Shown in pieces: positions 977 to 35,135 of a stretch of 64,000 nt of DNA. The notes beneath the pieces are model-generated. The model worked only from the letters and a program-made list of their open reading frames with translations. It was not told where the DNA came from and ran no database searches. The DNA is from Lachnospiraceae bacterium (GTDB lineage: Bacteria; Bacillota; Clostridia; Lachnospirales; Lachnospiraceae): NCBI GenBank assembly GCA_016281335.1, contig JAEEIK010000110.1, positions 1 to 64,000 of the forward strand. Direction: 5' to 3'. Within the stretch, counting starts at the first letter, position 1. Each line of letters opens with the position of its first letter. Made by a program: the position numbers and the translations under genes.

Positions 977-2356
977 TCACTGCAATAACGAAAGGATATC
1001 CTGCCTGCTCTGATTTGCGTTCGATATCATGGACTCTCCGGATTGTGCCAGGACGTTCTGAAGCGTTAATGACATCATTTCCTTTGACATATCCGCGTCT
1101 CTCAGACGGCTTTCTGCTGCCTGTGTATTCTCAACGGTATTGTTATTGCTGTTTACGGTATGCTCAAGCCGGTTCTGCTGAGCGCCTATGTCTGATCTCC
1201 TGGAGGAGATATCCTGCATTGCGCGCTTTATCAATTTTATCGAAAGCCCGGCTGCCTCCTGCTCATCCACATGTATGCTGTTAATACCGAGCTGCTCACT
1301 GTCCATCTTGTCAATAGTTAAATACATCCCATGTCCCGCTTCCACTCCTGTCTGTATCCAAAGCGTCTTTTCATAAGGAGGATATGTCACATCAACGAGC
1401 TGATCAAAGTTTACGCTTGCTCTCGCTCCAACAGCATTGCGATATGCATTTGCCGCAGCTTCCTCCGAAGCATATTTATTCCCGTATGAATACACATAGA
1501 GCTTGCCGCCGGATTTGGCAAGGGCCGAAGCATGACTGACCTGATAACCGCCGGTCCCAAGCTCGCCTGAACTGTATACGGGATGAGCCTTTACCCCGTT
1601 AATGATCGCGTCTGCCAATGCGTCACCGCTGGAAACGCCATTAACACCTATAGAATAATAATGCTGATTTCCTGTATTCGATACCGAAGATGTTCCGGCC
1701 GGATCAGATGTCAGGGTTATATCAAAGACTTCATTACAGCCGTAGGGGCAGACAAAGGAAAAGGATTTTCCGTAAAGCATATCGATATTTTGTGCATTTA
1801 CTGCGCTAAGATCCATGGATGCCGCCGAATAATAGCCCCCACCTTGTGCGGGATAGCCCTCGCTCAGATGCCCTGTCTCAGTAGATGGAGACGAGATCAG
1901 ATGGGGCAGATTCTCATAATATTCATCTCCGTAGCCGCGGATATCACGAAAGATCTTCTTTTCATTGAACGTAGTATCCCTTCCTATCCTGTCGATCTCC
2001 TCTTTCAGAGCTCCGATCTCCTGCTCGATGGCATTGCGATCCTCATCGTTCAGGGTGCCGTTAGCCGCCTGGACTGAAAGCTGAGTCATACGGTTAAGGA
2101 TATCATGTACTTCCGCAAGGGCGCCGTCGGCAACCTGACAGAGAGAGATACCGTCCTCGGTATTCTCGGTTGCTCTCGTAAGCCCCTTTACCTGCCTGCG
2201 CATCTTTTCCGAAATGGCAAGCCCCGCCGCATCATCTGCTGCACGGTTTATCTTATATCCGGATGAAAGCTTCTCCGTCGTCTTTGCTTTTTTACCGGTA
2301 TTTATTTTATACTGTCTCTGCGCATTCATCGCAGCGATGTTTGTCTGTATTACCAT
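977..2356 (-). CDS. fliC: Flagellin
   Basis: Structural subunit of the flagellar filament, exported through the flagellar type III system. Residues 1-140 carry the conserved D0/D1 helices (KLSSGYKINRAADDAAGLAIS at 29-49 and SVQAANGTLNDEDRNAI). Residues about 355-459 carry the C-terminal D1/D0 part ending ISNANQSRQDILSLLQ. The variable surface domain spans about 141-345 and includes a two-cysteine motif CPYGC (203-207), rare in flagellins because cysteines are usually avoided. At 459 aa it is longer than the roughly 270-aa short flagellins. It has a sigma-28-like promoter, a GGAG site before the ATG and its own terminator, so it is monocistronic. It lies just downstream of the glycan operon, so flagellin glycosylation by nearby enzymes is possible but unproven. 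Confidence 0.96.
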   Translation of the reverse strand: MVIQTNIAAMNAQRQYKINTGKKAKTTEKLSSGYKINRAADDAAGLAISEKMRRQVKGLTRATENTEDGISLCQVADGALAEVHDILNRMTQLSVQAANGTLNDEDRNAIEQEIGALKEEIDRIGRDTTFNEKKIFRDIRGYGDEYYENLPHLISSPSTETGHLSEGYPAQGGGYYSAASMDLSAVNAQNIDMLYGKSFSFVCPYGCNEVFDITLTSDPAGTSSVSNTGNQHYYSIGVNGVSSGDALADAIINGVKAHPVYSSGELGTGGYQVSHASALAKSGGKLYVYSYGNKYASEEAAANAYRNAVGARASVNFDQLVDVTYPPYEKTLWIQTGVEAGHGMYLTIDKMDSEQLGINSIHVDEQEAAGLSIKLIKRAMQDISSRRSDIGAQQNRLEHTVNSNNNTVENTQAAESRLRDADMSKEMMSLTLQNVLAQSGESMISNANQSRQDILSLLQ

Positions 2357-2480: not shown

Positions 2481-3158
2481 TTATCCGTAAGAAGATAGTT
2501 TTTTTACATCCTCCGCCGTGGTTATCTTGACGTTTTTCTCATCCCCGGGTATCACCGCCACATCCATTCCGTCAAGCACGGCGATCTCCGCAGAACCGTT
2601 GATCTCAAGTATCTTATCCGGCAGAAGCTCTTCAAGAGCCTTTTTGAAACGTTCTAGTTTAAATGCCTCCGGCGCCTGTCCTGCTCTTAAGCTGCTACGG
2701 TCAAGCAGGGCTTTGATCCTGCCGTCTTCGCAGACATAAGTCGTGTCCTTGACGGGTATTCCCGGCATCACTCCCTCGTGATCCTTTAGTCCGCTTAAGC
2801 AGCCGCTTATAAGCTCCGCGCTCACAAAGGGTCTCGCCGCATCATGTATCAGGACATTATCCTCATCCGACACATTTTTCATATCATTAAGAGCATTTAG
2901 TATGGACAGCGCCCTGTTTTTTCCCGGAGCGGAAAAGCCCTCTATCTTTGCTTTAGAGCTTTCCCCTGCTGCATCCAGTATCCTGTCTCTCCACTCCTCC
3001 TCGGCCACTATCCTGACACTGTCGATCTGCGGATGGGAGGTAAGAGCATGAAGAGCGCGGATCACCATCATCTCCCCGCCCATATCGATATACTGTTTCG
3101 GGATATCTCCCCCGGCCCTTAAGCCCTTTCCGCCTGACAGAAGTATCGCCCTGTTCAT
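2481..3158 (-). CDS. IspD/TarI-family cytidylyltransferase
   Basis: CTP-dependent sugar/polyol-phosphate cytidylyltransferase of the IspD/TarI family (225 aa, the usual length). The N-terminus ILLSGGKGLRAGGDIPKQY is the nucleotide-binding loop, and VLIHDAARPFVS is the conserved catalytic region. The C-terminus VKITTAEDVKKL matches the family end. IspD makes CDP-methylerythritol for isoprenoids; TarI makes CDP-ribitol. Its place as the last gene of a polysaccharide operon, immediately after an epimerase resembling ribulose-5-phosphate epimerase, favours a glycan role. A TarJ-type reductase, needed for CDP-ribitol, is not in the window. The start codon abuts the stop of the epimerase gene. Substrate is unresolved. 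Confidence 0.8.
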   Translation of the reverse strand: MNRAILLSGGKGLRAGGDIPKQYIDMGGEMMVIRALHALTSHPQIDSVRIVAEEEWRDRILDAAGESSKAKIEGFSAPGKNRALSILNALNDMKNVSDEDNVLIHDAARPFVSAELISGCLSGLKDHEGVMPGIPVKDTTYVCEDGRIKALLDRSSLRAGQAPEAFKLERFKKALEELLPDKILEINGSAEIAVLDGMDVAVIPGDEKNVKITTAEDVKKLSSYG

Positions 3159-3821
3159 TTAAAACTCCATATTCCTGATATTCCTGATGGTCTCGGCATA
3201 GTCCTTTCCTTTTCCGAAGAGAAGCGTGGTACCGAGTACAAAACCCTTTACGCCCAGGGGCGCATACTCTTTGATCTTGTCCGCGCCGCAAGCCCCGTCC
3301 CAGTATATATCAAAATGCATATCCTCTTTGATGGCCAGAAGCTCATCATATTTCTGCCTGACATAAGGAAGGAACATCTGGGAAGCATTTCCGGGATTCA
3401 CGCTCATGACCAGCACCTTATCCACTATGGTCAGCATCATCCTGACAGTCTCCACGCTGGTTCCGGGATTGATCGCTATGCCCGGTATCAGTCCCGCGTC
3501 TATAATCTTCTGAAGCGTGGTCGAAGGGTGATACTCCGCTTCCGGATGGATATAGATAGTATCCCCTTTATTCAGATTATTAATGAACAGATCTATGGTA
3601 TTGTTCGGATGCTCTACCATAAGGTGCACATCCAGTGGCAGCTTCGTAGCCTTCCTGATATAGATCATATCATTTAAGGACATAGCATAATTATGGACAT
3701 AACGACCGTCCATTATATCTATGTGAAAAGAATCTATCCCCGCCTTTTCGAGCTCCTCTGCTTCTCTTTTGAGATTCCCGAAATCAGCGCACATCATTGA
3801 CGCCATCAGTTCAAATTTCAT
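3159..3821 (-). CDS. Ribulose-phosphate 3-epimerase family protein
   Basis: TIM-barrel epimerase of the RPE family, 220 aa. Metal and acid/base motifs are visible: SMMCADFGNL near the N-terminus, HIDIMDGRYVH, LDVHLMVEHP, and DIYWDGACG in place of the usual VDGG. The last differs from housekeeping RPE and suggests a divergent subfamily. The first plausible start is the ATG at 3821, preceded by a G-rich Shine-Dalgarno, and overlaps the upstream glycosyltransferase by 11 nt; a longer frame upstream only covers that gene. It abuts the cytidylyltransferase gene, so the pair probably makes and activates a ketopentose-derived or similar sugar phosphate for the polysaccharide. Ordinary pentose-phosphate function is the alternative. 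Confidence 0.82.
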   Translation of the reverse strand: MKFELMASMMCADFGNLKREAEELEKAGIDSFHIDIMDGRYVHNYAMSLNDMIYIRKATKLPLDVHLMVEHPNNTIDLFINNLNKGDTIYIHPEAEYHPSTTLQKIIDAGLIPGIAINPGTSVETVRMMLTIVDKVLVMSVNPGNASQMFLPYVRQKYDELLAIKEDMHFDIYWDGACGADKIKEYAPLGVKGFVLGTTLLFGKGKDYAETIRNIRNMEF

Positions 3822-5805
3822 CTTTTCTTTCCCCCTTTCTGGTATCGGTACGAAGCCTGAAGTCACTGTGATCCAGGGAAAAGTTGGGATTATAATACGG
3901 ATCCCCTTTATCCAGCGCTTCCTTCCACTTTTCCCTGAAGTGTTTCGATTCTTCCTCATATCTTTCCGCATTTGCGCCCTTATCATCCGCTCCTCTTGAT
4001 ATGGATTCGTAATGATAAAGCTCCGCAAAGGGAGTAAACACGTTCAGATATCCGAGCTGTCTTAACTTAAGACAGAAGTCCACGTCATTCAGTGATACGG
4101 CAAAGCCCTCATCCAGTCCGCCCACTTCTTCATAAAGCGTTCTTTTTACCAGCAGACAGGCCCCTGTAACTGCCGATACATCCTGGGCATAACAGAGTCT
4201 TCCCATATAACCCAGTATGTCCCTGCCATCTCTGTAATGTGTATGTCCCGCTGTCCTGTGAGCTCCGAGCCCTAATACTATGCCCGCATGCTGTATCGTA
4301 TCATCCGGATAGTAAAGCTTAGCCCCGACAGCTCCCACATCTTCTCTCTGTGCATACATCAGCAGTTCTTCGATCCAGTTGATGCTTATCACTTCGGTAT
4401 CATTATTGAGCAGCAGTATATAATCACCCCTGGATTTTTTTACACCTGCATTGCACACCTTCGAATAATTAAAGGGCCCGTGGCACTCGGTCACGCGGAT
4501 CCGCTTATCTGCTTTCAGTTCCTCATAATAATCGCGTATCTCGCGGCCTTTGGAATTGTTCTCCACTATGATGATCTCGTAATTCTCATAGGTAGACTTA
4601 TTCCGTATGGAGTCCACGCAGCGCTTAAGATCATCCTTGTGTTCCTTATTCGGTATGATGATCGAGATAAGCGGCGTTTCCTTTATCTCATAGCTCAATC
4701 TGAAGATAGTCTCAAAGGCCCTGGTGGAAGTGATGCTGAAATTCTCAAAGCCCGCCCTCTTCAGGTGATCCGCAACCGCCCCCTTCGCCGCATCTATCGC
4801 ATAGGACTTGGCAGTGATATCGGCAGCCACACTGGCCGGATGGGATCTCCAGTAATAGAGTATGCGCGGAACATGCACTATCTTACGCGCTCTTGATGTC
4901 AGCCTGAGTATCATGTCATGATCCTGGCTTCCGTCAAACTCCGTCCTGAACAGTTCATCCCCGCCCAGCAGCTCTCTTTTGAACACACTGAAATGGCAGA
5001 TATAATTATTGGCCCTTAAGTTATCTATGGCAAAGTCCGGCTTGAAATGCAGGACTATCATATGGTCTATGTCTTTCTCACCCTTAAAGGTAGCCTCGTC
5101 ACAGTAGAGATAATCGGCATCCTCATCGCAGATCCTCTTCATATATTCATAGAGCACCGAAGGATGAAGTATATCGTCATGGTCAAAGAGTCCGATGTAC
5201 TCTCCGCCCGCCATCCTTACGCATTCGTTGGTGTTGCCGGATATACCGAGATTCTCCGTGAGTTTCTTATAAACGATACGGCTGTCCTCTTTAGCATATT
5301 CCCGGCAGATATCCCCCACATATCCATGGGCATCGTCCGAACCATCCGCAAGACAGAGCTGCCATTTCTTATAAGTCTGGGCCTTTACCGAATCCATCAT
5401 CTCCCGCAGATATTTCTCGGGAGTATTATAAAGAGGCGTCAGTATCGAGATCGTGATATCCTTATCGAAGACACAGGCTTCCTCAAGACTTCTTTCCTTT
5501 GCATCTGGAAAACCCGCGGTTCCGAGTCTTTTCTTTACCTTAAGCTCCACAGCCTTATTTTTCAGCTTGCCGTAAAAGCCCCGCAATGAGCCGTAGCGCT
5601 TCACCCTCTTCAGATTCTTATCAAGCGAAGTCTTAAGCTTTCTTGCCGGAGCGCTTAACTTATAAAAACGGCTGCTCTCGATAAGGCTTATCTTTGAGGA
5701 AAGCACACGGTTTTCCTCAGCCGTAAGCCGCATTTTTTCTTCGATCTCTATAACTTTTATGCGCTCTTTCTCATAAAGAGTCTTAACGTCGTTTTCCATT
5801 TTCAC
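3811..5805 (-). CDS. Two-domain GT2 glycosyltransferase
   Basis: Large cytoplasmic glycosyltransferase (664 aa) with a coiled-coil N-terminus (about 1-60) and two GT-A domains. The first begins ISILTPLYNTPEKYL and carries LFDHDD as the metal-binding DxD-type motif. The second begins ISIIIPNKEHKDDL and carries LLLNNDTE. Such tandem GT2 proteins often add alternating sugars in rhamnan-type and O-antigen chains exported by Wzm/Wzt. The probable start is a GTG at 5805 overlapping the upstream stop (GTGA); an ATG at 5799 is equally possible, and neither has a strong ribosome site, suggesting translational coupling. Donor and acceptor cannot be read from sequence; GDP-D-rhamnose or dTDP-linked sugars are the likely supply. 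Confidence 0.88.
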   Translation of the reverse strand: MKMENDVKTLYEKERIKVIEIEEKMRLTAEENRVLSSKISLIESSRFYKLSAPARKLKTSLDKNLKRVKRYGSLRGFYGKLKNKAVELKVKKRLGTAGFPDAKERSLEEACVFDKDITISILTPLYNTPEKYLREMMDSVKAQTYKKWQLCLADGSDDAHGYVGDICREYAKEDSRIVYKKLTENLGISGNTNECVRMAGGEYIGLFDHDDILHPSVLYEYMKRICDEDADYLYCDEATFKGEKDIDHMIVLHFKPDFAIDNLRANNYICHFSVFKRELLGGDELFRTEFDGSQDHDMILRLTSRARKIVHVPRILYYWRSHPASVAADITAKSYAIDAAKGAVADHLKRAGFENFSITSTRAFETIFRLSYEIKETPLISIIIPNKEHKDDLKRCVDSIRNKSTYENYEIIIVENNSKGREIRDYYEELKADKRIRVTECHGPFNYSKVCNAGVKKSRGDYILLLNNDTEVISINWIEELLMYAQREDVGAVGAKLYYPDDTIQHAGIVLGLGAHRTAGHTHYRDGRDILGYMGRLCYAQDVSAVTGACLLVKRTLYEEVGGLDEGFAVSLNDVDFCLKLRQLGYLNVFTPFAELYHYESISRGADDKGANAERYEEESKHFREKWKEALDKGDPYYNPNFSLDHSDFRLRTDTRKGERKDEI

Positions 5806-7904
5806 TGACCGATGCTGAGCGTCTTTTCGCTCTCAGCATAATACACGCTTCCTGTTTCCTTATCCTTAAATTCCACGGCTATATACCAGGCGCCTTCTGA
5901 AAGGCTGTCCTTATCCGGTCTCAACGAAAAGCCGGAAAGCAGAATATTCTTTTCATCCGGAAAGACATACTTAAGCTCCGGCAGATACTGCCCCTCTAAA
6001 TCATAGGCCCTCATATCTTTGTCTTTACTGAGGATCAGTCTTTTAGCGTATCTTGCATTATCCGCGCCTTCCATATAAGCCCAGCCCTTTATCAGCAGGC
6101 TCTCCTCTTCGTCCCTGCGGAACTTTTTTTGTATCCCGCATTCGTCGATATTCAGCTTCAGGGAATGACACTTTCTTAAAGCGATGTTTCCCTTAAACTC
6201 TTCATATTCCCTGTCTCTATAGTCGCGGCTCTCCTGTCTGTTATAAGCCTGCGCTGCAAATCGCGGATCGTCCTTTCTTAAGTGCTGCGGGTAATAAGGA
6301 TCCCTTCCCGCGTACTGTCTGTGTTTATCGTACAGCCTCTCCCTTTCTTCCGCAAGCCTGTTCCATTTTTCCGTATCCAGCAGGTCATTGCCCCGGGATA
6401 CCGATTCATCATGTATCAGACTTACATCATTTCTCTGAACATTCCTGTATCCCGCTTCGATAAGACGCATGCACAGATCCACATCATTGTAGGCCACCCT
6501 GAAGCTCTCGTCAAAACCGCCCACTCCCGTAAATCTGCTGTTCTTTATCATCAGACAGGCAGCCGTCACTCCTATCATGTTCATCTTCGTCATCGCGAAA
6601 TTAAAATAAGGATGCTCATCTCCGCCGATACCGCAGAGTTTATGAGCCGGCCCTGTCTCAAGATTGCTTATGCCGGCATGCTGCAGTCTCCCGTCAGGAT
6701 ATAGCAGCTTTGCTCCCACAGCTCCTATGCCCTCTATAGCAGCCTGCTCCATCAGTATCTTCAATACCGAAGCATCGGTAAAATAAGTATCATCATTAAG
6801 AAACAGTATATACTCTCCCCTCGCCCTCTTCGCTCCTCTGTTGCACATCCTGGCAAAGTTGAATTCAGCTTCTTTATGGAGATATTCTATGTTTCCGATA
6901 TGCTTGTTTTTCCGGAGTCTTTCAAACAGCTCCTCATAAGCCTTCCTGTTCTTTTCATCGGAACCGTTATCCACGATGATCAGTTCAATATCGGAAAGCT
7001 TTACCGTATCCGTAAGGCTTTTAAGACACCTAGCCAGCATGGCAGGATGGTCTTTGCTGGGTATCACTATACTTAAGTTTCCGCTCTTGCCGGCCTTTTC
7101 ATATGCTGCCTTTATACCGTCGTATTCAGGCTCATAGCCGAACACACAGGGCGCTATACCTGTATCGAGGGCATACAGCTTCTTCTGTTCATTGCTGATC
7201 TTCCCGTGATAGAGCACCAGCGGAGTATGTCCGGTCTTCCTGAAGCCGTCTTCGGTAAAAGACTTCTTAAGGACCAGCTCATAGAGTTTCTTTTTGTTTT
7301 TATATATATCCTTTATCTCTTCTTCGGCAAAGGCTTCCCTTCTGAACGCTGTCATGCTGCCGTAGTAATAGCAGCCAAGCAATGACTCCGGGTAAGGTTC
7401 CTGCTTAAACCAGGGAAAGCAGCGTTCCCCTTCTTCCGTTACCATATCCTCATCCGCATACCAGATGTCAGCTTCGGGATGTGTCTCAAAATACTTTGCG
7501 GCTATCTTATAAGCCCGCTCATCCACGCAGTCCTTATCTTCGGCCTCAAGCCACATTATATCCGTATCCGCTTCTTCAGCTTCGTCAAGCCCCGAATACT
7601 TTTCGAAGGCTTCCCTTTCCTTATCCCGTATCCACAGCGGATAAGGCTCTTTAAAAAGCTCTATGTTTTCATTATATGCTTTCAGACTTTCATCACCGGC
7701 CGGATCCGTAAGCGGTCTTACAAATCCCTTTCTTGAAAATGACCTCAGAAAATTAAACAGCCTGCTGCCCTCCAAGCGTCCAAGCCTCCACTTCATCAGT
7801 GAATTCTTCTCCTCAAGAGCCGCAAGCTCCCCTGCAAGCCTTATATACTTTTCCTTTTCCTCCCTGTACAGAGCTTCGTATCTTTTTTCTTCGTAAGACG
7901 TCAT
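5802..7904 (-). CDS. Large GT2 glycosyltransferase with degenerate first domain and C-terminal beta domain
   Basis: 700-aa relative of the next gene. Residues 1-55 are coiled-coil. Residues about 95-250 keep the back half of a first GT2 domain, including IWYADEDMV, but lack the N-terminal nucleotide-binding strand (no ISIxxPxYN). The second domain is complete: LSIVIPSKDHPAML, LFLNDDTYF and GGFDESFRVAYNDVDLC. After about residue 530 comes a probable beta-sandwich tail (LLIKGWAYMEGAD) that may bind the growing chain or partners. The chosen start ATG at 7904 overlaps the upstream stop as ATGA with GAGG 8 nt before it; a longer reading to 7952 lies inside the preceding gene. Likely assembles the Wzm/Wzt-exported glycan. 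Confidence 0.87.
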   Translation of the reverse strand: MTSYEEKRYEALYREEKEKYIRLAGELAALEEKNSLMKWRLGRLEGSRLFNFLRSFSRKGFVRPLTDPAGDESLKAYNENIELFKEPYPLWIRDKEREAFEKYSGLDEAEEADTDIMWLEAEDKDCVDERAYKIAAKYFETHPEADIWYADEDMVTEEGERCFPWFKQEPYPESLLGCYYYGSMTAFRREAFAEEEIKDIYKNKKKLYELVLKKSFTEDGFRKTGHTPLVLYHGKISNEQKKLYALDTGIAPCVFGYEPEYDGIKAAYEKAGKSGNLSIVIPSKDHPAMLARCLKSLTDTVKLSDIELIIVDNGSDEKNRKAYEELFERLRKNKHIGNIEYLHKEAEFNFARMCNRGAKRARGEYILFLNDDTYFTDASVLKILMEQAAIEGIGAVGAKLLYPDGRLQHAGISNLETGPAHKLCGIGGDEHPYFNFAMTKMNMIGVTAACLMIKNSRFTGVGGFDESFRVAYNDVDLCMRLIEAGYRNVQRNDVSLIHDESVSRGNDLLDTEKWNRLAEERERLYDKHRQYAGRDPYYPQHLRKDDPRFAAQAYNRQESRDYRDREYEEFKGNIALRKCHSLKLNIDECGIQKKFRRDEEESLLIKGWAYMEGADNARYAKRLILSKDKDMRAYDLEGQYLPELKYVFPDEKNILLSGFSLRPDKDSLSEGAWYIAVEFKDKETGSVYYAESEKTLSIGQ

Positions 7905-9922
7905 ACTATCGTCCTCGCGCTGGCGCCCGGAATGGCCGTAACGCACATGCATACTTCAAGCACATCTCCCTCTTTAGCTGCCGGTATCTTCAGCATGATC
8001 TGCGGATCGTTGTCCGCGAACACATAACAGTCCCTGGCTACACGCTTTCCGTTTACCTTTATCTTATTTTTCAGCTCTTTCTTATCGCCGCCACTCACAT
8101 AAGTAAGTCGGTCTATACGGACAAGGCAGGGGTTCATACCCGGATCCAGCCTTAAGCCCTTAACGTTCCTGCCGGGAGAAAGTACGGTCTTAAATCCGTC
8201 CTCACAGTAAAGGTCCGTTGTCTTATCCATATACGAGCGTTCTTCCGAAAAGCCCGCCCCTATATCCTCATATACCTGCAGATAAGATGCGGGGCCTGTG
8301 CTTTTGCTGACCATGAGTTCCTTTACCGGATATCCCAGTTTCTGTCTTATCTCGGAAAGGGCAAGCCTTCCTCCCGTCACTTTCTTCTGGAAGGCTGCTT
8401 CCTCTTCATTTATCTTTCTGAAAAGGGCGCTCATCCCGTCCTTATTAAGTCTCTTCTTTATCCTGGCAAGACCGCTTATGTTTCTTCCCGGATGTTCAAG
8501 AGAATAACAGTACAGCGTTCTCATAGCCGAAAGCTCCGCGCTCCCGCCTTCCTCATTCATCCATTCATAATCTATCAGAGTCCAGCTGTCCTTATCCTTT
8601 ATGATATTTGAAAAGATCATATCCCTGCATACCGGCGCAGATTCATCCGCGGGTACTATCCTTTTCAGATATTCATCAAAGAGATCACAGAATGCGTCTT
8701 CATTCCCTTCCGAAAGCAGCTTCTCAACCCTGGCTTCCAGCGTTTTCCCGGAAAGATATTCAAAGACCGCCACCGGACGCTCTCCTTCGTATTTAAGCTT
8801 CACTTCATTTACCGCAAGCTTGCTGCCGTCATACTGCTTCTTCAGGGTTTCCATATTGGAGAGCAGCTTCTTTATATGCTCGTCTCCCTCTTTATATAAA
8901 GCCCTTTTCTCTACCCGCTTATCTGCCTCATATCCGCATATCCTGGTGGATATTGCATACTTCGGATCCCTGTCGGAAGAGTATCTGACATAGGCTGTGT
9001 CACTTTCCCCGTTTAATAAAAGCAGATACGAATTTGAAAAAGTCCTGAAGCTTCCGTCCTCGCAGATGCCGTCATATGCTTTGGCTTCATCAAAGATAAG
9101 CATCCTCTCCCTATCGTAATTGCAGATATTGGTCTTGAGTTCTCCCTTTTCCGGCAGACGTTCGGGACTGAATATCATGCTCGTGAATTTATAATCGGGG
9201 TAAGGGTAGTACTCGCTTATCTTATCAAAACCCGCTTTCTTAGCGGTCTTTCTGAGCCCCTCTATACCGAAGGTCCTGACGCCCTTTCGCTCCGGGTAGT
9301 TCTCTATTCCGTCAAAATATCTTCCCGTATGATCCTCGGAAGCCCCGGCAAAGTACTTAAGCCCGTATCTGTTCTCTATGGCCACTGCGATGCAGCCGTC
9401 TTCCTTCAGATGTCCCTTTAAGCATTTTAAAAACTGCTCCTGAGGCGCCGAACCGCCTATGTAGGAATCGGCATACTCAAGCACCCCTATCAGCATGATA
9501 TAGTCATAGTCCCGGTCCAGGGTATCTTCTATATCCTGGAAATTTCCCACATGTATTACTATGTTATCCCTGTCCTTATGTCTGTATGCATTTATCATAG
9601 AACGTTTTTTGGACAGTTCCACACAGGTGACTTCCTTCGCCTTCCGCGCAAGCATTCCCGTAATGGCGCCGCAGCCGCTGCCTACTTCCAGCACTTTCTT
9701 GCCTTCAAGGGAAAGCCACTCCACTATATTTGTCCGCTGAGCCGACAGATGATAAAACACGGGCCAGCTTAAGTGCTTCTCTATCAGTTCCGGAAAAGCG
9801 CTCTCCTCATTGTTCTTCACCAGTTCCAGCAGTTCATCCTCAACGGCTCCGTCGCTGTACAGATCCCTTCCGGAATACATGGACAGATCAAGACATACTT
9901 TTCCGATATATTCGTTATCCAT
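7901..9922 (-). CDS. Methyltransferase/kinase-like bifunctional protein, WbdD-like chain terminator candidate
   Basis: 673 aa. Residues about 45-250 form a class I SAM methyltransferase with motif I VLEVGSGCGAIT (77-88), VELSK as the acidic loop, and DYIMLIGVLEY. Residues about 300-470 resemble a small-molecule (APH-type) kinase: CRDMIFSN (432-439) matches the HxDxxxxN catalytic loop with Cys replacing His, and LIDYEW (D451) supplies the metal-binding Asp. A C-terminal beta-like segment follows. This methyltransferase-kinase order is that of WbdD, which caps the non-reducing end of E. coli O9a-type chains with phosphate and methyl groups. Here it sits immediately after wzm and wzt (8-nt overlap with wzt), the expected context. 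Activities are inferred from motifs; a catalytically altered kinase is possible. Confidence 0.75.
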   Translation of the reverse strand: MDNEYIGKVCLDLSMYSGRDLYSDGAVEDELLELVKNNEESAFPELIEKHLSWPVFYHLSAQRTNIVEWLSLEGKKVLEVGSGCGAITGMLARKAKEVTCVELSKKRSMINAYRHKDRDNIVIHVGNFQDIEDTLDRDYDYIMLIGVLEYADSYIGGSAPQEQFLKCLKGHLKEDGCIAVAIENRYGLKYFAGASEDHTGRYFDGIENYPERKGVRTFGIEGLRKTAKKAGFDKISEYYPYPDYKFTSMIFSPERLPEKGELKTNICNYDRERMLIFDEAKAYDGICEDGSFRTFSNSYLLLLNGESDTAYVRYSSDRDPKYAISTRICGYEADKRVEKRALYKEGDEHIKKLLSNMETLKKQYDGSKLAVNEVKLKYEGERPVAVFEYLSGKTLEARVEKLLSEGNEDAFCDLFDEYLKRIVPADESAPVCRDMIFSNIIKDKDSWTLIDYEWMNEEGGSAELSAMRTLYCYSLEHPGRNISGLARIKKRLNKDGMSALFRKINEEEAAFQKKVTGGRLALSEIRQKLGYPVKELMVSKSTGPASYLQVYEDIGAGFSEERSYMDKTTDLYCEDGFKTVLSPGRNVKGLRLDPGMNPCLVRIDRLTYVSGGDKKELKNKIKVNGKRVARDCYVFADNDPQIMLKIPAAKEGDVLEVCMCVTAIPGASARTIV

Positions 9923-11162
9923 CTATTTCCACCTTTGACCCCATATCAAAATAACCCACCGTATCCTTATCGGACACACAGCTGATATTTATCGCATCAT
10001 ACAGTCTATGATATACTTCAAAACAGCCGTTTTTAAAACCCGTAACCCCGAAGCTCAGCAGATACTCTCCGCCCTGCAGCTGCATGGTCTGGGTAAAGCA
10101 GATCTTCTTCTCTTCGCCTGCTTTGACCGCTTCCATCCAGGCTTTCTCTATCATGGTATTGGTACCGCAGATCTCGGTACCCTTAACATCCTTTACAGAC
10201 CAGGCAAATATCGGCGCTTCTATATCTTCTTTAAATGAAACCCTCATATGCACCGCGAATTCGGTACCTTTAAGTATGGCGCTGATCCGTCTGCCCTTAT
10301 CATCCGTAACATATATCTCTTCTATATGCGCCTGTCCGTTTCCGTAATCAAGTCCGGCATCACCCTCGGTATTCCTGCGTCCTCCGTTATTGCTCTGATC
10401 TCCGTAGAGTCCCACCAGCACCTGCTTGTAGGCATCGATCATCTCCTTTGTGCCGCCGTCTCCCAGGAGTTTTCCCTTGTTAAGCAGCACTACCCTGTCA
10501 CAGTACTTGGCTATGCTGGACAGATCATGGCTTACGAAGACTATGGTCTTTCCGGCTTTCTTGAACTCCTCGAACTTATGAAAACACTTGGCCTGGAAGA
10601 AAACATCTCCTACCGAAAGGGCCTCATCGACTATCAGTATCTCAGGATCGATATTGATGGCCAGGGCAAAAGCAAGCCTTACAAACATACCGCTGGAATA
10701 GGTCTTGACCGGCTGGTATACATATTCGCCTATATCCGCAAATTCAAGTATGGCCGGCAGCTTTTCTTCTATCTCCTTATCCGAATAGCCCATCATGGTA
10801 CCGTTCAGATAAACATTCTCTATGCCGTTATATTCCAGATTGAAACCGGCCCCCAGCTCCAAAAGTGCAGAGATGCGCCCGTTTACCTTAACAGTGCCGG
10901 AAGTCGGGGTTATGACTCCGGTGATGATCTTTAAGATCGTGGACTTTCCGGAACCGTTGGTACCTATTATACCCACGGTCTCACCCTTGCCCACCTTAAA
11001 GCTGACACCGTCAAGCGCATGGTTTTCGGTATACAGCTTATCCTTGCGCCAGAGTCCCAGAGCATCCTTAAGCCTGTCTGACCTGCGGTTATACAGCTTA
11101 TATATCTTATGGACATCACTGACTTCGATGGAATATTCGCTTTTCGTCTCTTCTTTATTCAT
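9915..11162 (-). CDS. wzt: Wzt: ATPase of polysaccharide ABC exporter with C-terminal carbohydrate-binding-type domain
   Basis: Cytoplasmic ATPase that powers export of a completed undecaprenyl-linked polysaccharide. Walker A GTNGSGKST (67-75), signature YSSGM (155-159), Walker B ILIVDEAL (175-182) and SHDL are all present. After about residue 255 a Gly/Asn-rich linker leads to a roughly 145-aa C-terminal beta domain (about 270-415), so the 415-aa protein matches Wzt proteins that recognise a terminal chain modification, not short (about 250-aa) forms. The ATG follows the wzm stop directly. Together with the adjacent methyltransferase/kinase-like protein it implies cap-dependent export, as known for O8/O9a systems. 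Confidence 0.93.
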   Translation of the reverse strand: MNKEETKSEYSIEVSDVHKIYKLYNRRSDRLKDALGLWRKDKLYTENHALDGVSFKVGKGETVGIIGTNGSGKSTILKIITGVITPTSGTVKVNGRISALLELGAGFNLEYNGIENVYLNGTMMGYSDKEIEEKLPAILEFADIGEYVYQPVKTYSSGMFVRLAFALAINIDPEILIVDEALSVGDVFFQAKCFHKFEEFKKAGKTIVFVSHDLSSIAKYCDRVVLLNKGKLLGDGGTKEMIDAYKQVLVGLYGDQSNNGGRRNTEGDAGLDYGNGQAHIEEIYVTDDKGRRISAILKGTEFAVHMRVSFKEDIEAPIFAWSVKDVKGTEICGTNTMIEKAWMEAVKAGEEKKICFTQTMQLQGGEYLLSFGVTGFKNGCFEVYHRLYDAINISCVSDKDTVGYFDMGSKVEIDG

Positions 11163-11945
11163 TTACAACACATCCGCAAAATGAGGCTTAAGCCTCCTGA
11201 ACAATACCCTTCCGGCAAGGAATATCAGAGCCGTTACCACCCAAAAATACAGGGTATAAACAAGTGAGCCGTTAAAACATTCTTTCCCGTATATCGCATC
11301 CCTGTATCCCCGAACGACGTAGACCAGGGGATTGATCTTTATAAGCGTCTTTACCGTCTCATTGGTAAGCGCATCCATATCCCACATGATGGGAGTTGCC
11401 CACATTCCCAGCTGCAGCAGTATATTGATGATCTGGCTTAAGTCCCTGAAAAATACCACCACCGAGGATGTCAGGTAACATATCCCCAGCACCAGCATGA
11501 ACAGACAGAAACTGTAATAGGGTATCTGCAGCGTATAAACAGAGGGCATAATATCATAAACCATGCCCAGAACTATAAGTATGATCGCAAAGAAAGCGTG
11601 GATAAAGACGGCTGCTATCACTTTGATAAGAGGCAGCACATTGACATCAAAGACCACTTTTTTTACCAGATAATTATAATCGAGAAGCGCATTGGTGCCA
11701 TAGGTCAGCGCTTCCGTAAAGAAAAACCAGGGGACGAGTCCCGCCGTCAGAAACAGAACAAAAGGCACATCTCCCGACTGCCTCTGGTTCGGAAAGATCC
11801 TTCCGAAAACTATATAATACATCCCCACTGTGATAAGAGGCTGTGCCAGCGCCCAGAGCGCGCCCAGATATGAGCCCGCATAACGTTTCTTAAAATCGTT
11901 CTTTGCCAGTCTCCATATCAGCTTTTGTTTACGTGATGTCTCCAA
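11163..11945 (-). CDS. wzm: Wzm: permease of polysaccharide ABC exporter
   Basis: ABC-2 type membrane permease (260 aa) with about six hydrophobic segments and the family N-terminus LIWRLAKNDFKKRYAGSYLG before the first membrane segment. It pairs with Wzt to move a lipid-linked polysaccharide across the cytoplasmic membrane. The likely start is a TTG at 11945 inside the end of rmlC (17-nt overlap), preceded by a GGGGG Shine-Dalgarno-like run; no ATG fits the conserved N-terminus. Teichoic-acid TagG and rhamnan RgpC exporters are in the same family, so the cargo is inferred from context. Confidence 0.93.
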   Translation of the reverse strand: METSRKQKLIWRLAKNDFKKRYAGSYLGALWALAQPLITVGMYYIVFGRIFPNQRQSGDVPFVLFLTAGLVPWFFFTEALTYGTNALLDYNYLVKKVVFDVNVLPLIKVIAAVFIHAFFAIILIVLGMVYDIMPSVYTLQIPYYSFCLFMLVLGICYLTSSVVVFFRDLSQIINILLQLGMWATPIMWDMDALTNETVKTLIKINPLVYVVRGYRDAIYGKECFNGSLVYTLYFWVVTALIFLAGRVLFRRLKPHFADVL

Positions 11946-12477
11946 GATACCCCCATTTTTTATCCCGGTCGGACATTATCAGTTCCATGCCTTCGGTGAT
12001 CGGCCACTCTACGCCGATGGCGGGATCATTATACATTATGCCGCCTTCATCTCCGGGACGGTAAAAATCACTGCACTTGTAGCAGAATTCCGCATAATCA
12101 CTGAGCACAAGAAAGCCATGGGCAAAATTCTTCGGTACGAACAGCTGCTTCTTGTTCTCTTCCGACAGCACCGCCCCGAACCATTTTCCGTAGGTCTTCG
12201 AGCCCTTCCTCAGATCAACGGCCACATCAAATACTTCGCCCTTAATCACCCTTACCAGCTTGTCCTGGGGATGCTCTATCTGAAAATGCAGCCCCCTCAG
12301 CACTCCCTTGGTCGATGCCGACTGGTTGTCCTGCACAAATTCAACATCTATGCCTGCTTCCTTAAACTGATCGTAGCGGTAGGTCTCCATGAAATAACCA
12401 CGCTTATCACCGAATACCTGCGGCGATATCAGCTTTATTCCTTCTATCTCACATTCCTGAACTTCAATCTGCCCCAT
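11929..12477 (-). CDS. rmlC: dTDP-4-dehydrorhamnose 3,5-epimerase
   Basis: Cupin epimerase converting dTDP-4-keto-6-deoxy-D-glucose to dTDP-4-keto-L-rhamnose. The active-site motif GVLRGLHFQ (catalytic His), DLRKGSKTYGKW, and FVPKNFAHGFLVLSD are conserved, and 182 aa is the family length. GGAG lies 9 nt before the ATG; the start overlaps the preceding GH25 gene by 14 nt. RmlA and RmlB are in the same operon, but RmlD, the final reductase, is not in the window, so L-rhamnose synthesis must be completed elsewhere or a different sugar is made. Confidence 0.95.
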   Translation of the reverse strand: MGQIEVQECEIEGIKLISPQVFGDKRGYFMETYRYDQFKEAGIDVEFVQDNQSASTKGVLRGLHFQIEHPQDKLVRVIKGEVFDVAVDLRKGSKTYGKWFGAVLSEENKKQLFVPKNFAHGFLVLSDYAEFCYKCSDFYRPGDEGGIMYNDPAIGVEWPITEGMELIMSDRDKKWGYLGDIT

Positions 12478-13705
12478 CTTCTTTAGCTCCCTTCCATACC
12501 AGATCCAGGTCGACCCTGTTATTTATACCGTCTATGTGCCCGCTGGACGTGTACTGCCAGAGGCTGAAATTCCCCTTGTACTTGGGAGTGGCTCTCCACT
12601 CTGCCAGCCAGCGTATATAGGGTTCTATCTCTTCGTCATGCATCTTCTTCTCAAACCAGGACCTTGATGCATATATTCCTCCGTGATATCCTGCGCTCTG
12701 TACCGTCTCACAGAAAGCCTTTATCACTGCAGTCCTGGTATCGACATCCAGATTATCTGCACGCCCGCCGGCGCTCTCCACATCTATGAAGATGGGATAA
12801 TCCAGCTTATAATCCTTGCAGAGCATGGCTGCCATTGAGGCCTCTTCCACGGCTTCGGTCTCGTTCACCGCCTGGGTGAAGAAGTACACGCCAAGCTGTA
12901 CCCCGGCTGCCGCTGCGCCTTCCATATTCTTCTTAAAGTAGGGATCCTCTACCAGTGAACCGCTGGTGGACCCCCGGTATCCGCAGCGCACTATCGCAAA
13001 CTGCACTCCCGCTGCGGCCGCTTTCTTCCAGTCTATATCTTTCTGATACTTTGAAACGTCAACACCGAAGGCTGCATCGCTGCCTTCCCACTTATCCGTA
13101 TGCTCGGTCTCATCGGCATCATCGGCCGCCTCATGTACCTCGGTATCATCCGCCTCGGCATCTATCTCGTCTTCGCTCTTAACGTAGAGAGCTATGTCTT
13201 CGATCACCGTATATTCAAGTTTTTCCTTAACGGTGACCCTCATGGGATCTTCGGGCACTTCGTATCCGTCTACGTCCTGCAGGGACACATAGTAGTCTCC
13301 CGCTTTCAGTTCCGGCACATAGATCAGGCCGTCCTTATCCAGATCCTTGTACTCACCTTCCGGCTCTATGTTCACATAGAAGCTGATGCCGTGCACCACC
13401 TTGCCGTCTTCATCCGTAACCGAAAGCCTCATGTCATGGGCGATGCTGGAAGCCGTCAGATACAGTCTGGGTAAGCGCTGTTCCTCTCTTACGACCACAG
13501 GCCTGTATTCGTCATTATCAAAGAAACTGTCATCTTTAAGGAAATCCCTGTATCCTGTTGCGGCCGCCTCTTCTTCGCTTATTTCAGGCGCTTGTGTCAC
13601 AGGCTTTGTTTTTTTATCCCGGTTAAGATACAGTATCAGCGCAAAAGTAAGCGCCAGAAAACTGAATACCAGGACTATGGTGAGATTTCTGATACGTCTG
13701 TCCAT
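12464..13705 (-). CDS. Membrane-anchored GH25 muramidase (small)
   Basis: 413 aa. A single N-terminal membrane segment (about 7-27) acts as an uncleaved anchor. Residues about 86-165 form a prealbumin-like beta domain (DKDGLIYVPELKAGDYYVSL). An acidic linker (about 175-210) is followed by a GH25 lysozyme domain from residue 213: GVDVSKYQ (D216), GVYFFTQAVNETEAVEEA, and FIDVES (D308, E310) as catalytic acids. GH25 enzymes cleave the MurNAc-GlcNAc bond of peptidoglycan. It lies between rmlA and rmlC with direct abutment, so it is co-transcribed with sugar synthesis. Trimming wall at sites of polymer export or attachment is a reasonable inference. Confidence 0.9.
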   Translation of the reverse strand: MDRRIRNLTIVLVFSFLALTFALILYLNRDKKTKPVTQAPEISEEEAAATGYRDFLKDDSFFDNDEYRPVVVREEQRLPRLYLTASSIAHDMRLSVTDEDGKVVHGISFYVNIEPEGEYKDLDKDGLIYVPELKAGDYYVSLQDVDGYEVPEDPMRVTVKEKLEYTVIEDIALYVKSEDEIDAEADDTEVHEAADDADETEHTDKWEGSDAAFGVDVSKYQKDIDWKKAAAAGVQFAIVRCGYRGSTSGSLVEDPYFKKNMEGAAAAGVQLGVYFFTQAVNETEAVEEASMAAMLCKDYKLDYPIFIDVESAGGRADNLDVDTRTAVIKAFCETVQSAGYHGGIYASRSWFEKKMHDEEIEPYIRWLAEWRATPKYKGNFSLWQYTSSGHIDGINNRVDLDLVWKGAKEDGAD

Positions 13706-14575
13706 TTATAATCCGTTTGATACATCGATAAGATACTGCCCGTAGGGTGTTTTCTTAAGGGGCTCCGCCAGTTTCAGCAGCTGCTCTCTGTCAATGAAGC
13801 CTCTCTTATAGGCTATCTCCTCGATACAGGAGATATACAGTCCCTGTCTCTTCTGGAATGCAGCCACGAAATCCGCCGCATCAAGCAAAGCATCGGGATT
13901 ACCGGTATCCAGCCATGCGAAACCGCGGCCTAAGGGTTCTACCGAAAGCTCCCCCCTTGACAGGTACTCATTGTTGATGCTGGTTATCTCTATCTCTCCT
14001 CTGGCAGAGGGTTTCACATTCTTTGCTATCTCCACCACATCATTGTCATAGAAATACAATCCGGGCACCGCATAATTGCTCTTCGGGTGTTCGGGCTTTT
14101 CTTCTATCGATACGGCCTTTCCGTTTTCATCAAATTCCACGACACCGTATTCACGCGGATCTTTTACATAGTAACCGAAGATAGTAGCGCCCTTTTCTTT
14201 TGCCGCCACCTTCCTGAGTACCGTTGAAAAACTCTGTCCGTAGAATATATTGTCGCCGAGCACCAGGCATACGCTGTCGCTTCCGATAAAGTCCGCTCCT
14301 ATTATAAAGGCATCTGCCAGTCCTCTGGGTGTCTCCTGTACCGCATACTCAAAGCGCATACCCAGCTGACTGCCGTCGGAAAGCAGTTCTTCAAAAACAG
14401 GCAGATCCCTTGGCGTTGAGATCACCAGCACTTCCCTGATGCCTGCAAGCATAAGGATAGACAAAGGATAATAGATCATCGGCTTGTCATATACCGGCAT
14501 TATCTGTTTTGATACGGCTTTGGTCAGCGGATATAGTCTTGTTCCGCTGCCTCCTGCAAGAATGATACCTTTCAT
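13706..14575 (-). CDS. rmlA: Glucose-1-phosphate thymidylyltransferase
   Basis: Makes dTDP-glucose from glucose-1-phosphate and dTTP, the first step of dTDP-6-deoxyhexose synthesis. N-terminal [11 protein letters not shown] signature, [26 protein letters not shown] and [19 protein letters not shown] are all conserved. At 289 aa it is the standard RmlA type. The stop codon abuts the GH25 start; a G-rich Shine-Dalgarno precedes the ATG. Confidence 0.97.
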
Positions 14576-14591
14576 ATACGGATACCCCCTG

Positions 14592-15671
14592 TTATTTTCC
14601 TTTATACATTTCTTCGTAATACTTCTGATAATCGCCGCTGGTCACATTCTTCATCCAGTCCTCGTTCTCAAGATACCATTTGATCGTAAGCTTTATGCCG
14701 TCCTTGAACATGGTATCCGGCTCCCAGCCTATCTCTTTCTTTATCTTGTCCGGCGCGATGGCATAGCGCCTGTCATGCCCCTTCCTGTCTTCAACGTAGG
14801 TGATCAGATCCCTTGATACATTTGCCTTCCTGGGATCTGAATCCGGCAGTATCTCAAGCAGCGTATCTATTATGATGGTAACGATCTCGATATTCTGCTT
14901 TTCGTTATGACCGCCCACATTATAGGTCTCAAAGAGTTTTCCCTTCTCCTGGACCATATCTATGGCCTTTGCGTGATCCGCCACATAGAGCCAGTCTCTG
15001 ACGTTCTTGCCGTCACCGTATACGGGCAGCTTCTTACCGCTTAAAGCGTTGTTTATCATAAGCGGTATCAGCTTCTCCGGGAACTGGTAAGGTCCGTAGT
15101 TATTTGAACAGTTGGTTATATTCGCAGGGAAATGGTAGGTATCCATATATGCCCTTACCAGCATATCGGAACCTGCTTTGCTTGCGGAATAAGGTGAATG
15201 AGGCGCATAGGGCGTCGTCTCATAGAAATATCCGTTACCCTCGGGCAGTGAGCCGTATACCTCATCCGTAGATACATGAAGGAACTTCTTTCCCTCCGGA
15301 TATACTCCGTCCTTTTCCCAGGCTGCCCTTGCACAGTCCAGCATCACCGCTGTACCCAGCACATTGGTCTTTACAAAGACACCGGGATCCTTGATGCTCC
15401 TGTCCACATGGCTTTCAGCCGCAAAGTGAACCACCCTGTCTATGTCATTCTCTTCAAAAATCTTACTTATCGCTTCTCTGTCGGTGATATCCGCCTTGAT
15501 AAAAGTGTAATTATCTCTTTTCTCAACGGACTTAAGGTTTTCAGGGTTGCCCGCATAGGTCAGGGCATCCACGTTTATTATCCTTATCTCATCACCGTAC
15601 TTATCAAACATATAGTGAATGTAGTTTGATCCGATAAAGCCTGCTCCTCCTGTAACAAGGTATGTTCTCAT
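14592..15671 (-). CDS. rmlB: dTDP-glucose 4,6-dehydratase
   Basis: Short-chain dehydrogenase/reductase enzyme giving dTDP-4-keto-6-deoxy-D-glucose. GGAGFIGSN is the NAD-binding loop, VSTDEVYG holds the catalytic Thr-Asp-Glu, and YSASKAGSD holds the Tyr/Lys pair. [18 protein letters not shown] is typical of RmlB. 359 aa. A strong AGGAGG site lies 8 nt before the ATG. The product can feed RmlC and possibly the FdtA-like ketoisomerase encoded at 39.2-39.6 kb. Confidence 0.97.
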
Positions 15672-34012: not shown

Positions 34013-35135
34013 TTTCCAGTCCGTCATAAAGTTTCGTGATCTCAGCCGTATTGGCCGAGAGTGAGAAGCGTTCTGCCCTTTCCCTTCCGGCATCGCCAAA
34101 TTTAAGCGCCCTTTCCTCATCTTCGATAAGGCTGCGCATGGCTGATGCAAGGGTATCAATATCTTCATAAAGGATACCCGTCTCACCGTCCTTAACTATT
34201 TCGGGTGTTGCTCCGCTCCTTCTTCCTATCACCGGCAGTCCTGCTCTCATGTATTCCACAGTCACCAGACCGAAGCCTTCATATTCGGAAGCAATGATCC
34301 CGGCGCCGGCTTTTTTCAGCAGCCCGCTCATATCCTTCACAAACCCGGGAAAGCGGATCAAACGTTTAAGTCCGTATTCCTCTGTCTTTCGTTTTAATAA
34401 AGCCGTATAGTTCTTATCGCCTTCTCCTGCAAATACCACTTCGAAGGGAGCTGTCTTATCCTTAAGAAGCTTTGCGGCTTCTATCACATCCAGCTGTCTC
34501 TTTGCGGGAAAGAGATAACCTGCATATACGAAACTGAATGGCCCGCTTTTTTTCTCAGCCTTCTTAAACTGAAGTGAAGTATCTATACCGTCATATATCC
34601 TGACAGTCTTCGCAGCCGGGTACTTTTTATCAAGATAGTCCTTTACCGCATCTGAAATGGCTATCAGCCTGTCTGCGCTTTCATAATACTTACGCACCGT
34701 CTCATCCGGGTAAAAGAATCTCATACCGTAATGCAGATCGGCAAATTCCCGTATATGCCATACATGCCTGCAATTAAGCCTCTCGGAGAGCATGGCCCCC
34801 TGTCCTATCACCGAGGTATTGGAGTGTATCAGCTCTATGCCCTTATCCTTAAAAAGCTCTGCAAGGCTTTCAAGCTCAGCCTCTATGGCCTTTTTTCTTT
34901 TACTCTTCTTTAGCGCAAAGCTTATGGGTTCCCTGTATATAGCCTCCCACTGCGTTAACGCCTGTATATGATATTCTATCCCGTTCTCCTTAAGGATGCG
35001 GGTAAACTCTCCTTCGGCCGGAAGGACCACTACCGGAATATGTTTCCCCCCTGCCTTTAAGCCGAGCACGAGATTTAGCAGAGCCCTTCCGGCTCCGTAC
35101 AGATTGTCATAATGGCTTAAAAACAGGATCTTCAT
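34002..35135 (-). CDS. GT4 glycosyltransferase
   Basis: 377-aa GT-B retaining enzyme. MKILFLSHYDNLYGAGRALL begins the acceptor domain, FVYAGYLFPAKRQLDVIEAA the donor domain, and IASEYEGFGLVTVEYMRAG carries EX7E. The ATG overlaps the upstream flippase stop (ATGA), implying translational coupling. Adds an unknown sugar to the lipid-linked unit. Confidence 0.9.
   Translation of the reverse strand: MKILFLSHYDNLYGAGRALLNLVLGLKAGGKHIPVVVLPAEGEFTRILKENGIEYHIQALTQWEAIYREPISFALKKSKRKKAIEAELESLAELFKDKGIELIHSNTSVIGQGAMLSERLNCRHVWHIREFADLHYGMRFFYPDETVRKYYESADRLIAISDAVKDYLDKKYPAAKTVRIYDGIDTSLQFKKAEKKSGPFSFVYAGYLFPAKRQLDVIEAAKLLKDKTAPFEVVFAGEGDKNYTALLKRKTEEYGLKRLIRFPGFVKDMSGLLKKAGAGIIASEYEGFGLVTVEYMRAGLPVIGRRSGATPEIVKDGETGILYEDIDTLASAMRSLIEDEERALKFGDAGRERAERFSLSANTAEITKLYDGLENEG

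Follow-up and report, generated by a model that had tools for sequence, protein, structure and literature searches.

A candidate O7-type methyltransferase-kinase chain terminator encoded beside a Wzm/Wzt exporter in a Lachnospiraceae bacterium

Cap-dependent export of polysaccharides has been described chiefly for Gram-negative O antigens. Here we analyse a stretch of 64,000 nucleotides from a Lachnospiraceae bacterium (contig JAEEIK010000110.1, assembly GCA_016281335.1, positions 1-64,000; hereafter the window, to which gene positions refer), in which an operon of overlapping genes, all on the minus strand, encodes in this order the ATP-binding cassette (ABC) transporter subunits Wzm and Wzt, a protein of 673 amino acids (aa) and two glycosyltransferases (GTs) (Table 1). 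The reading frames, motifs and gene order given in an initial annotation of the sequence were confirmed: the 673-aa protein has VLEVGSGCG at residues 77-85, CRDMIFSN at 432-439 and LIDYEW at 449-454, and it follows wzm and a wzt of 415 aa. Its gene shares 8 bases with wzt at one end and, at the other, its stop codon and the probable start codon of the next GT overlap in the sequence ATGA, so that wzt, the 673-aa gene and the first GT are tightly, and probably translationally, coupled. With a probability of about 0.75, we regard the 673-aa protein as an O7-type methyltransferase-kinase terminator, whose methyl-phosphate cap would be read by the tail of Wzt and thereby license export.

Table 1. 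Positions of the operon genes, their domains and the adjoining rhamnose genes in the window
Feature	Position	Strand	Basis
wzm, ABC transporter membrane subunit, 260 aa	11163..11945	-	Pfam ABC2_membrane, 54.6 bits
wzt, ABC ATPase with C-terminal carbohydrate-binding domain, 415 aa	9915..11162	-	Pfam ABC_tran, Wzt_C
Wzt_C cap-binding domain, Wzt residues 272-407	9942..10349	-	Pfam Wzt_C, 127 bits; PDB 2r5o match
Arg386 codon of wzt	10005..10007	-	alignment with 2r5o and 8dku
Methyltransferase-kinase terminator candidate, 673 aa	7901..9922	-	Pfam, alignment, AlphaFold model, Foldseek
Methyltransferase domain, about residues 53-245	9188..9766	-	Methyltransf_12/23/11/25 above cut-off; conserved residues
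Kinase-like domain, residues 298-515	8378..9031	-	model, Foldseek, profile search, hhalign 98.7%
Catalytic loop CRDMIFSN, residues 432-439 (D434 catalytic, N439)	8606..8629	-	D434 and N439 invariant, 63/63
C-terminal beta-sandwich, residues 548-663, possible carbohydrate-binding module	7934..8281	-	model; homologous stretch in P. asturiensis
First GT2 glycosyltransferase	5802..7904	-	Pfam Glycos_transf_2; reading frame listed from 7952, likely start ATG at 7904
Heptad (coiled-coil-like) module, N-terminus of first GT	7758..7880	-	module profile, independent E-value (iE) 3.8e-8
Second GT2 protein (GT664), two GT2 domains	3811..5805	-	Pfam; similarity to P. asturiensis GT-GT half
Weaker heptad module copy, second GT	5641..5784	-	iE 0.0047, above the counting threshold of 1e-3
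rmlC-like dTDP-rhamnose gene	11929..12477	-	inspection of translation; homologue in Citrobacter rml genes
rmlA	13706-14575		inspection of translation; homologue in Citrobacter rml genes
rmlB	14592-15671		inspection of translation; homologue in Citrobacter rml genes

The 673-aa protein combines a class I methyltransferase, an APH/protein-kinase-like domain and a beta-sandwich. Four Pfam methyltransferase families exceed their cut-offs within residues 71-236. A scan of a genome collection confirmed 410 relatives, of which 80 underlie the locus counts given below; 62 of these 80 and the window made up a first alignment (63 sequences), and 59 and the window a second. In the first alignment the methyltransferase residues Y22, Y57, G81, G83 and Y150 are invariant and position 102 is Glu in 17 sequences (E102 in the window) and Asp in 46; in the kinase part R318, K339, D434, N439, D451, E453 and W454 are identical in all 63, window included. 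A profile of residues 285-673 yielded 57 PDB matches at E<=1, all to protein kinases and 51 of them at E 0.0019-0.012, JAK and GCN2 kinases being among them (best E 0.0019). The four alignments inspected place D434 and N439 on the kinase catalytic Asp and its Asn; in those with JAK kinases, K339 falls a column away from the usual lysine. An AlphaFold model (mean predicted local distance difference test score 89.9) has kinase-like secondary structure at 298-515 and the beta-sandwich at 548-663, and a Foldseek search with residues 285-673 of the model recovered OSR1, APH(3')-Ia, FGFR2, PknB and JAK2 (E about 1e-4, probability 1.00, template-modelling (TM) scores 0.24-0.43). A kinase-like fold, as the initial annotation had proposed for residues 290-480, is supported by the model, by structural and profile matches, and by conservation. 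A His-to-Cys change in the catalytic loop had further been proposed to mark a subfamily, but the usual residue at the His position is Asp (58 of 63 sequences), followed by Asn (3) and Ser (1), with Cys in the window only; a 77% relative outside this set (L032) also has Cys, and the three gammaproteobacterial relatives described below have Tyr, Tyr and Phe.

The nearest counterpart that has been characterised, ORF6-O7, a terminator with the same order of catalytic domains, was described in 2024 from Klebsiella pneumoniae O7 as a single 1414-aa polypeptide with a methyltransferase, an unannotated AmiN-like kinase, an immunoglobulin (Ig)-like domain, a coiled coil and two GTs (PMC11231755). According to that report, it places phosphate and methyl on O3 of the terminal rhamnose, the enzyme, including its kinase Asp, is required for export (with D441A the chains remain inside), and the orthologues named come from alphaproteobacteria, gammaproteobacteria and cyanobacteria (PMC11231755). 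Two matches came from a tblastn search of 72,556 plasmids, one in Citrobacter braakii and one in Pseudomonas asturiensis, and both genes directly follow ABC permease and ABC ATPase genes. Over residues 22-654 the window protein shares 26% identity with the P. asturiensis protein of 1457 aa (E 8e-41). In the latter, Y28, Y66, G91, G93, E112 and Y158, counted by hand, carry the same numbers as those printed for ORF6-O7, and the catalytic Asp lies at 443, as against 441. Aligned through this relative, the S-adenosylmethionine (SAM) residues of the O7 enzyme correspond to Y22, Y57, G81, G83, E102 and Y150 of the window protein. A 1279-aa protein from an E. coli chromosome, encoded in an rml-GT-wzm-wzt cluster, is 26% identical over 573 aa (E 1e-44); the Citrobacter enzyme gene has no DNA match in E. 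coli genomes. In a single hhalign comparison, the kinase parts of these three gammaproteobacterial relatives matched those of Lachnospiraceae at 98.7% (E 3.8e-16), as against 0.1% for a GT control. The second GT of the operon, GT664, shares 35% identity (384 bits) with the GT-GT half of the P. asturiensis protein, which also contains a stretch homologous to the beta-sandwich.

Judged through these proxies, the 673-aa protein groups by sequence with the O7-type methyltransferase-kinase terminators, with homology spanning the whole catalytic part. Shared with ORF6-O7 are the order of methyltransferase, kinase and Ig-like domain, the collinear SAM-site and catalytic residues, the homologous GT2 polymerase modules (the latter two by proxy), the location of the proxies next to wzm and to a wzt whose product has a cap-binding tail, and a probable rhamnose polymer. 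Unlike ORF6-O7, the window protein is cut after the Ig-like domain; the coiled coil and two GTs are not in the same polypeptide, and heptad modules instead lie on the separate GTs.

The gene order is conserved. The wzt-then-terminator arrangement, a survey of which the initial annotation had called for, recurs in 78 of the 80 loci (66 have Lachnospiraceae in their record titles), with a Wzt bearing a cap-binding tail upstream and, in 73, within 400 bases. In the other five this Wzt lies farther upstream on the same strand or, in L038, runs together with the enzyme through ambiguous bases; a Wzt-terminator fusion in L038 was rejected since these bases hide a stop codon. Two loci have no Wzt in the contig DNA examined. 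A same-strand wzm homologue is present in 77 loci, and a GT homologue lies at most 400 bases downstream in 77. Matches at E<=0.001 occur in 55 of the 196 genomes examined from the order (own included), many of these matches being ordinary methyltransferases, and in 24 of the 196 a place scores at least 230 bits; among 398 genomes from across the phylum, 12 (own included) match the 63-sequence profile at E<=1e-20. In the titles and abstract beginnings listed by searches of one literature library (at most 20 papers per search, out of up to 146), there was no report of such a methyltransferase-kinase type in Bacillota.

The tail of the window Wzt matches Wzt_C well above the cut-off (127 against 30.4 bits), the only Wzt_C found in its own genome. 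Wzt residues 12-393 align with the Aquifex Wzt (8dku, E 4.1e-80), and the tail alone has 2r5o as its best PDB match (E 2.5e-6, compared with 4.7e-4 for Aquifex); 2r5o is reported as the C-terminal domain of the E. coli O9a Wzt (PMC6286764). The tail is hence a genuine carbohydrate-binding domain, in agreement with the initial annotation. In the Aquifex aeolicus Wzt, Trp362 is described as a lid over the 3-O-methyl group of the cap (PMC9445017). The window Wzt shares with it the C-terminal cap-binding domain and the sugar-site Asn (N335), but has Arg386 at the position of Trp362, as does the O9a Wzt.

All 79 Wzts of these loci (78 loci and the window) have Arg at this position, as do all 9 further Wzts linked to the family. 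A first comparison was hand-picked for variety, comprising 3 of 225 E. coli records and 9 of 435 plasmid records plus Citrobacter and P. asturiensis. Next to Methyltransf_24 enzymes, four Wzts have Trp and one has His; those of L132, L138 and one beside an annotated GT99 protein have Gln, and those of L127 and L131 (with an unrelated neighbour) and Aquifex have Trp. Arg386 was found in all four Wzts with a methyltransferase-kinase (three proteobacterial, and O9a by literature) versus one of 12 others (one-sided Fisher 0.003). Within the phylum it occurs in 5 of 6 Wzts with the enzyme's methyltransferase in the region versus 4 of 25 without (one-sided Fisher 0.004), and, leaving out the window's own family, in 3 of 4 versus 3 of 24 (one-sided Fisher 0.02); all these tests use non-independent sequences and are inflated by shared ancestry. 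The phylum test covered 33 Wzt_C places above the cut-off minus the window's own, i.e., 32 regions and 31 Wzts (L168 lacks a long Wzt, and 6 places fell below the cut-off), with 3 of the 31 more than 70% identical to another. Across the sequences compared, Arg386 mostly tracks methyltransferase-kinase neighbours; such a signature would allow the cap type to be guessed from a Wzt sequence. Two of the comparison records are of separate interest: the L135 Wzt (Arg386) adjoins a polysaccharide pyruvyl transferase, perhaps pointing to another acidic cap, and L138 (NZ_AP026896.1), a 4.9-Mb Aeromonas record with 18 annotated features that is filed as a plasmid, is probably a mislabelled chromosome.

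The kinase-like fold, the genuine cap-binding domain of Wzt and the conserved tight linkage together make a cap-dependent exporter the best reading for Lachnospiraceae, and a well-supported one. We infer its reactions, their order, the sugar and the cap-dependence of export as follows. The GT2 enzymes of the operon would lengthen an undecaprenyl-linked, probably rhamnose-containing chain; the kinase domain would phosphorylate the non-reducing terminal sugar, and the methyltransferase domain would methylate the terminal phosphate, upon which chain growth would stop. The C-terminal domain of Wzt would then bind the methyl-phosphate cap, with Arg386 touching the phosphate, and this binding would license export through Wzm.

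That such export operates in a Gram-positive bacterium, as the initial annotation had supposed, is less surprising than was implied, since WsaE of the Gram-positive Geobacillus stearothermophilus has been reported with a methyl cap and predicted Wzm/Wzt export (PMC2943079). The two systems share the Gram-positive setting, Wzm/Wzt export, a rhamnose polymer and a methyltransferase that modifies the chain end; as described in that report, WsaE differs in having methyl only, no described kinase, and its methyltransferase fused to two GTs. If the proposal is right, cap-dependent quality control of export extends, with a phosphate-containing cap, to a common gut family, whose surface glycans are predicted to present an unusual charged end to the host.

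WbdD of E. coli O9a, according to its published description, makes a methyl-phosphate cap that is read by the O9a Wzt (PMC3482155), and the 673-aa protein had initially been called WbdD-type. With a methyltransferase followed by a kinase fold, a partner Wzt with cap-binding domain and a presumed methyl-phosphate cap, it does resemble WbdD, which is also the top Foldseek match of the whole model among 350,542 chains (4azt, E 3.1e-9, 13% identity over 500 columns) and recurs at ranks 4 and 15, most other matches listed being methyltransferases. The whole-model fit to WbdD, however, gives TM-scores of 0.20/0.30 and a root-mean-square deviation of 17 A, indicating a different arrangement of the domains. 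Nor does WbdD appear among the 23 phmmer matches of the 673-aa protein (E<=1), the best 60 of 118 profile matches or the 57 kinase-part matches; the C-terminal coiled-coil ruler is lacking; and the O7 authors describe their kinase as quite unlike that of WbdD (PMC11231755). Membership in the WbdD family is accordingly very improbable: the resemblance is limited to fold and domain order, and the homology is instead to the O7-type enzymes through the proxies.

A terminator with a different cap, plain methyl or plain phosphate, in which one domain would be active and the other structural or degenerate, appears unlikely. A simple methyltransferase is reported to suffice in E. coli O8 (PMC3482155), Wzts adjoining Methyltransf_24-family enzymes do exist (5 of the records examined), and in the Citrobacter relative Glu replaces the DFG-like Asp; yet the invariance of D434, N439, D451 and K339 in all 63 sequences tells against this reading, as does the O9a-like, Arg-bearing Wzt tail when set against the Trp or His of those five. 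It is more doubtful still that the enzyme is no terminator at all, and decorates internal sugars or a lipid-linked primer while the Wzt domain reads something else. A distant relative in L123 (4763-7006, plus strand) joins a related methyltransferase-like part to a C-terminal CTP_transf_like domain, with no kinase-profile match and no wzt within the 12 kb examined, so that the modules may serve other ends. Such a role sits poorly with a cap-binding Wzt close upstream in 73 of the 80 loci, and with the reported need for the O7 enzyme, kinase Asp included, in export (PMC11231755).

Several points weigh against the O7-type terminator reading itself. Activity has been measured for ORF6-O7, whereas the function of the window enzyme and its glycan are predicted from genes, and membership in the O7 type was judged through gammaproteobacterial proxies. 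Pfam finds no kinase family in the 673-aa protein at E<=1, WbdD is absent among the 50 Foldseek matches listed for the model of residues 285-673, and the Foldseek TM-scores are low, so that the kinase resemblance is a fold-level likeness. The Lachnospiraceae kinase profile by itself gives only weak, fragmentary matches to the gammaproteobacterial kinases (whole-protein E 6e-7 to 2e-4), two of them giving no profile match at E 0.01 with default filters, and the beta-sandwich goes undetected in two of the three relatives (E. coli and Citrobacter). Finally, Arg386 occurs without a neighbouring methyltransferase-kinase in L135, L158, L159 and L175, and also in L184, though its genome has one elsewhere, and L176 combines a methyltransferase-kinase with His at this position.

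The initial annotation had also ascribed the setting of chain length to the 673-aa enzyme. The sequence does not establish this: WbdD and the O7 enzyme have a coiled-coil ruler that the present polypeptide lacks, its model showing just a helix of 7 residues beyond the sandwich. A few relatives do carry a C-terminal extension. A profile of the heptad module matches a GT-like open reading frame (ORF) in 71 of the 80 loci, and 100 of its 101 matches are N-terminal; since the 12 relatives from which the profile was built were also counted, the count is not independent, and the coiled-coil nature of the module was judged by eye from its 4-3 spacing. A home-made heptad score was dropped because it did not separate GT N-termini from background windows, as was a post-heptad segment motif present in only 20 of 77 first GTs. 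Speculatively, the heptad module of the GTs might act together with the terminator as a length ruler, and the split arrangement offers a way to ask whether ruler and terminator need covalent joining. A broader generalization can be offered as a possibility only: Lachnospiraceae and scattered other Bacillota might cap their surface glycans with methyl-phosphate by means of a split O7-type machine, the terminator being separate from the polymerase, such that docking of the terminator on the coiled coils of the polymerase GTs would set the length, and position 386 (Arg, Trp/Tyr/His or Gln) would read cap chemistry across phyla.

Different combinations of these modules were seen among 13 hand-picked regions. 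L114, L115 and L122 have a stand-alone methyltransferase gene, with RgpF-like or GT domains attached to the kinase; L117 has only a short methyltransferase-like ORF ahead of its kinase-RgpF fusion; and L119 joins methyltransferase, kinase and RgpF in a single fusion. These kinase fusions, mostly split from the methyltransferase, form a module-shuffling series.

Regarding the glycan, rmlA, rmlB and rmlC lie upstream, an rmlD-like gene (RmlD_sub_bind, 268 bits) is found on another contig of the genome (C18), and GDP-mannose dehydratase-type genes also occur within the window; we infer that the polymer likely contains L- and/or D-rhamnose. No LytR-CpsA-Psr (LCP) ligase was found in the own genome; this is probably an assembly gap, because 58 of 60 family genomes (own among the 60) have one, including the only other genome of the same genus there. 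After the two GTs lie genes for an IspD-type cytidylyltransferase and a ribulose-phosphate 3-epimerase-family protein (2481-3158 and 3159-3821, both minus strand), which could together supply a CDP-activated pentulose or polyol for the glycan. Just past these genes is a flagellin gene (977-2356, minus strand), and flagellin could thus be a glycan acceptor. The same glycan region further encodes two fused membrane-ATPase ABC exporters, the first identified by Pfam and the second by inspection, and a Wzy_C O-antigen-ligase-type protein (35132-36907, 45735-47480 and 61075-62658, all minus strand). GH25 lysozyme-type domains are present among the sugar genes at 12464-13705 (by Pfam) and 15694-18282 (by inspection), both on the minus strand.

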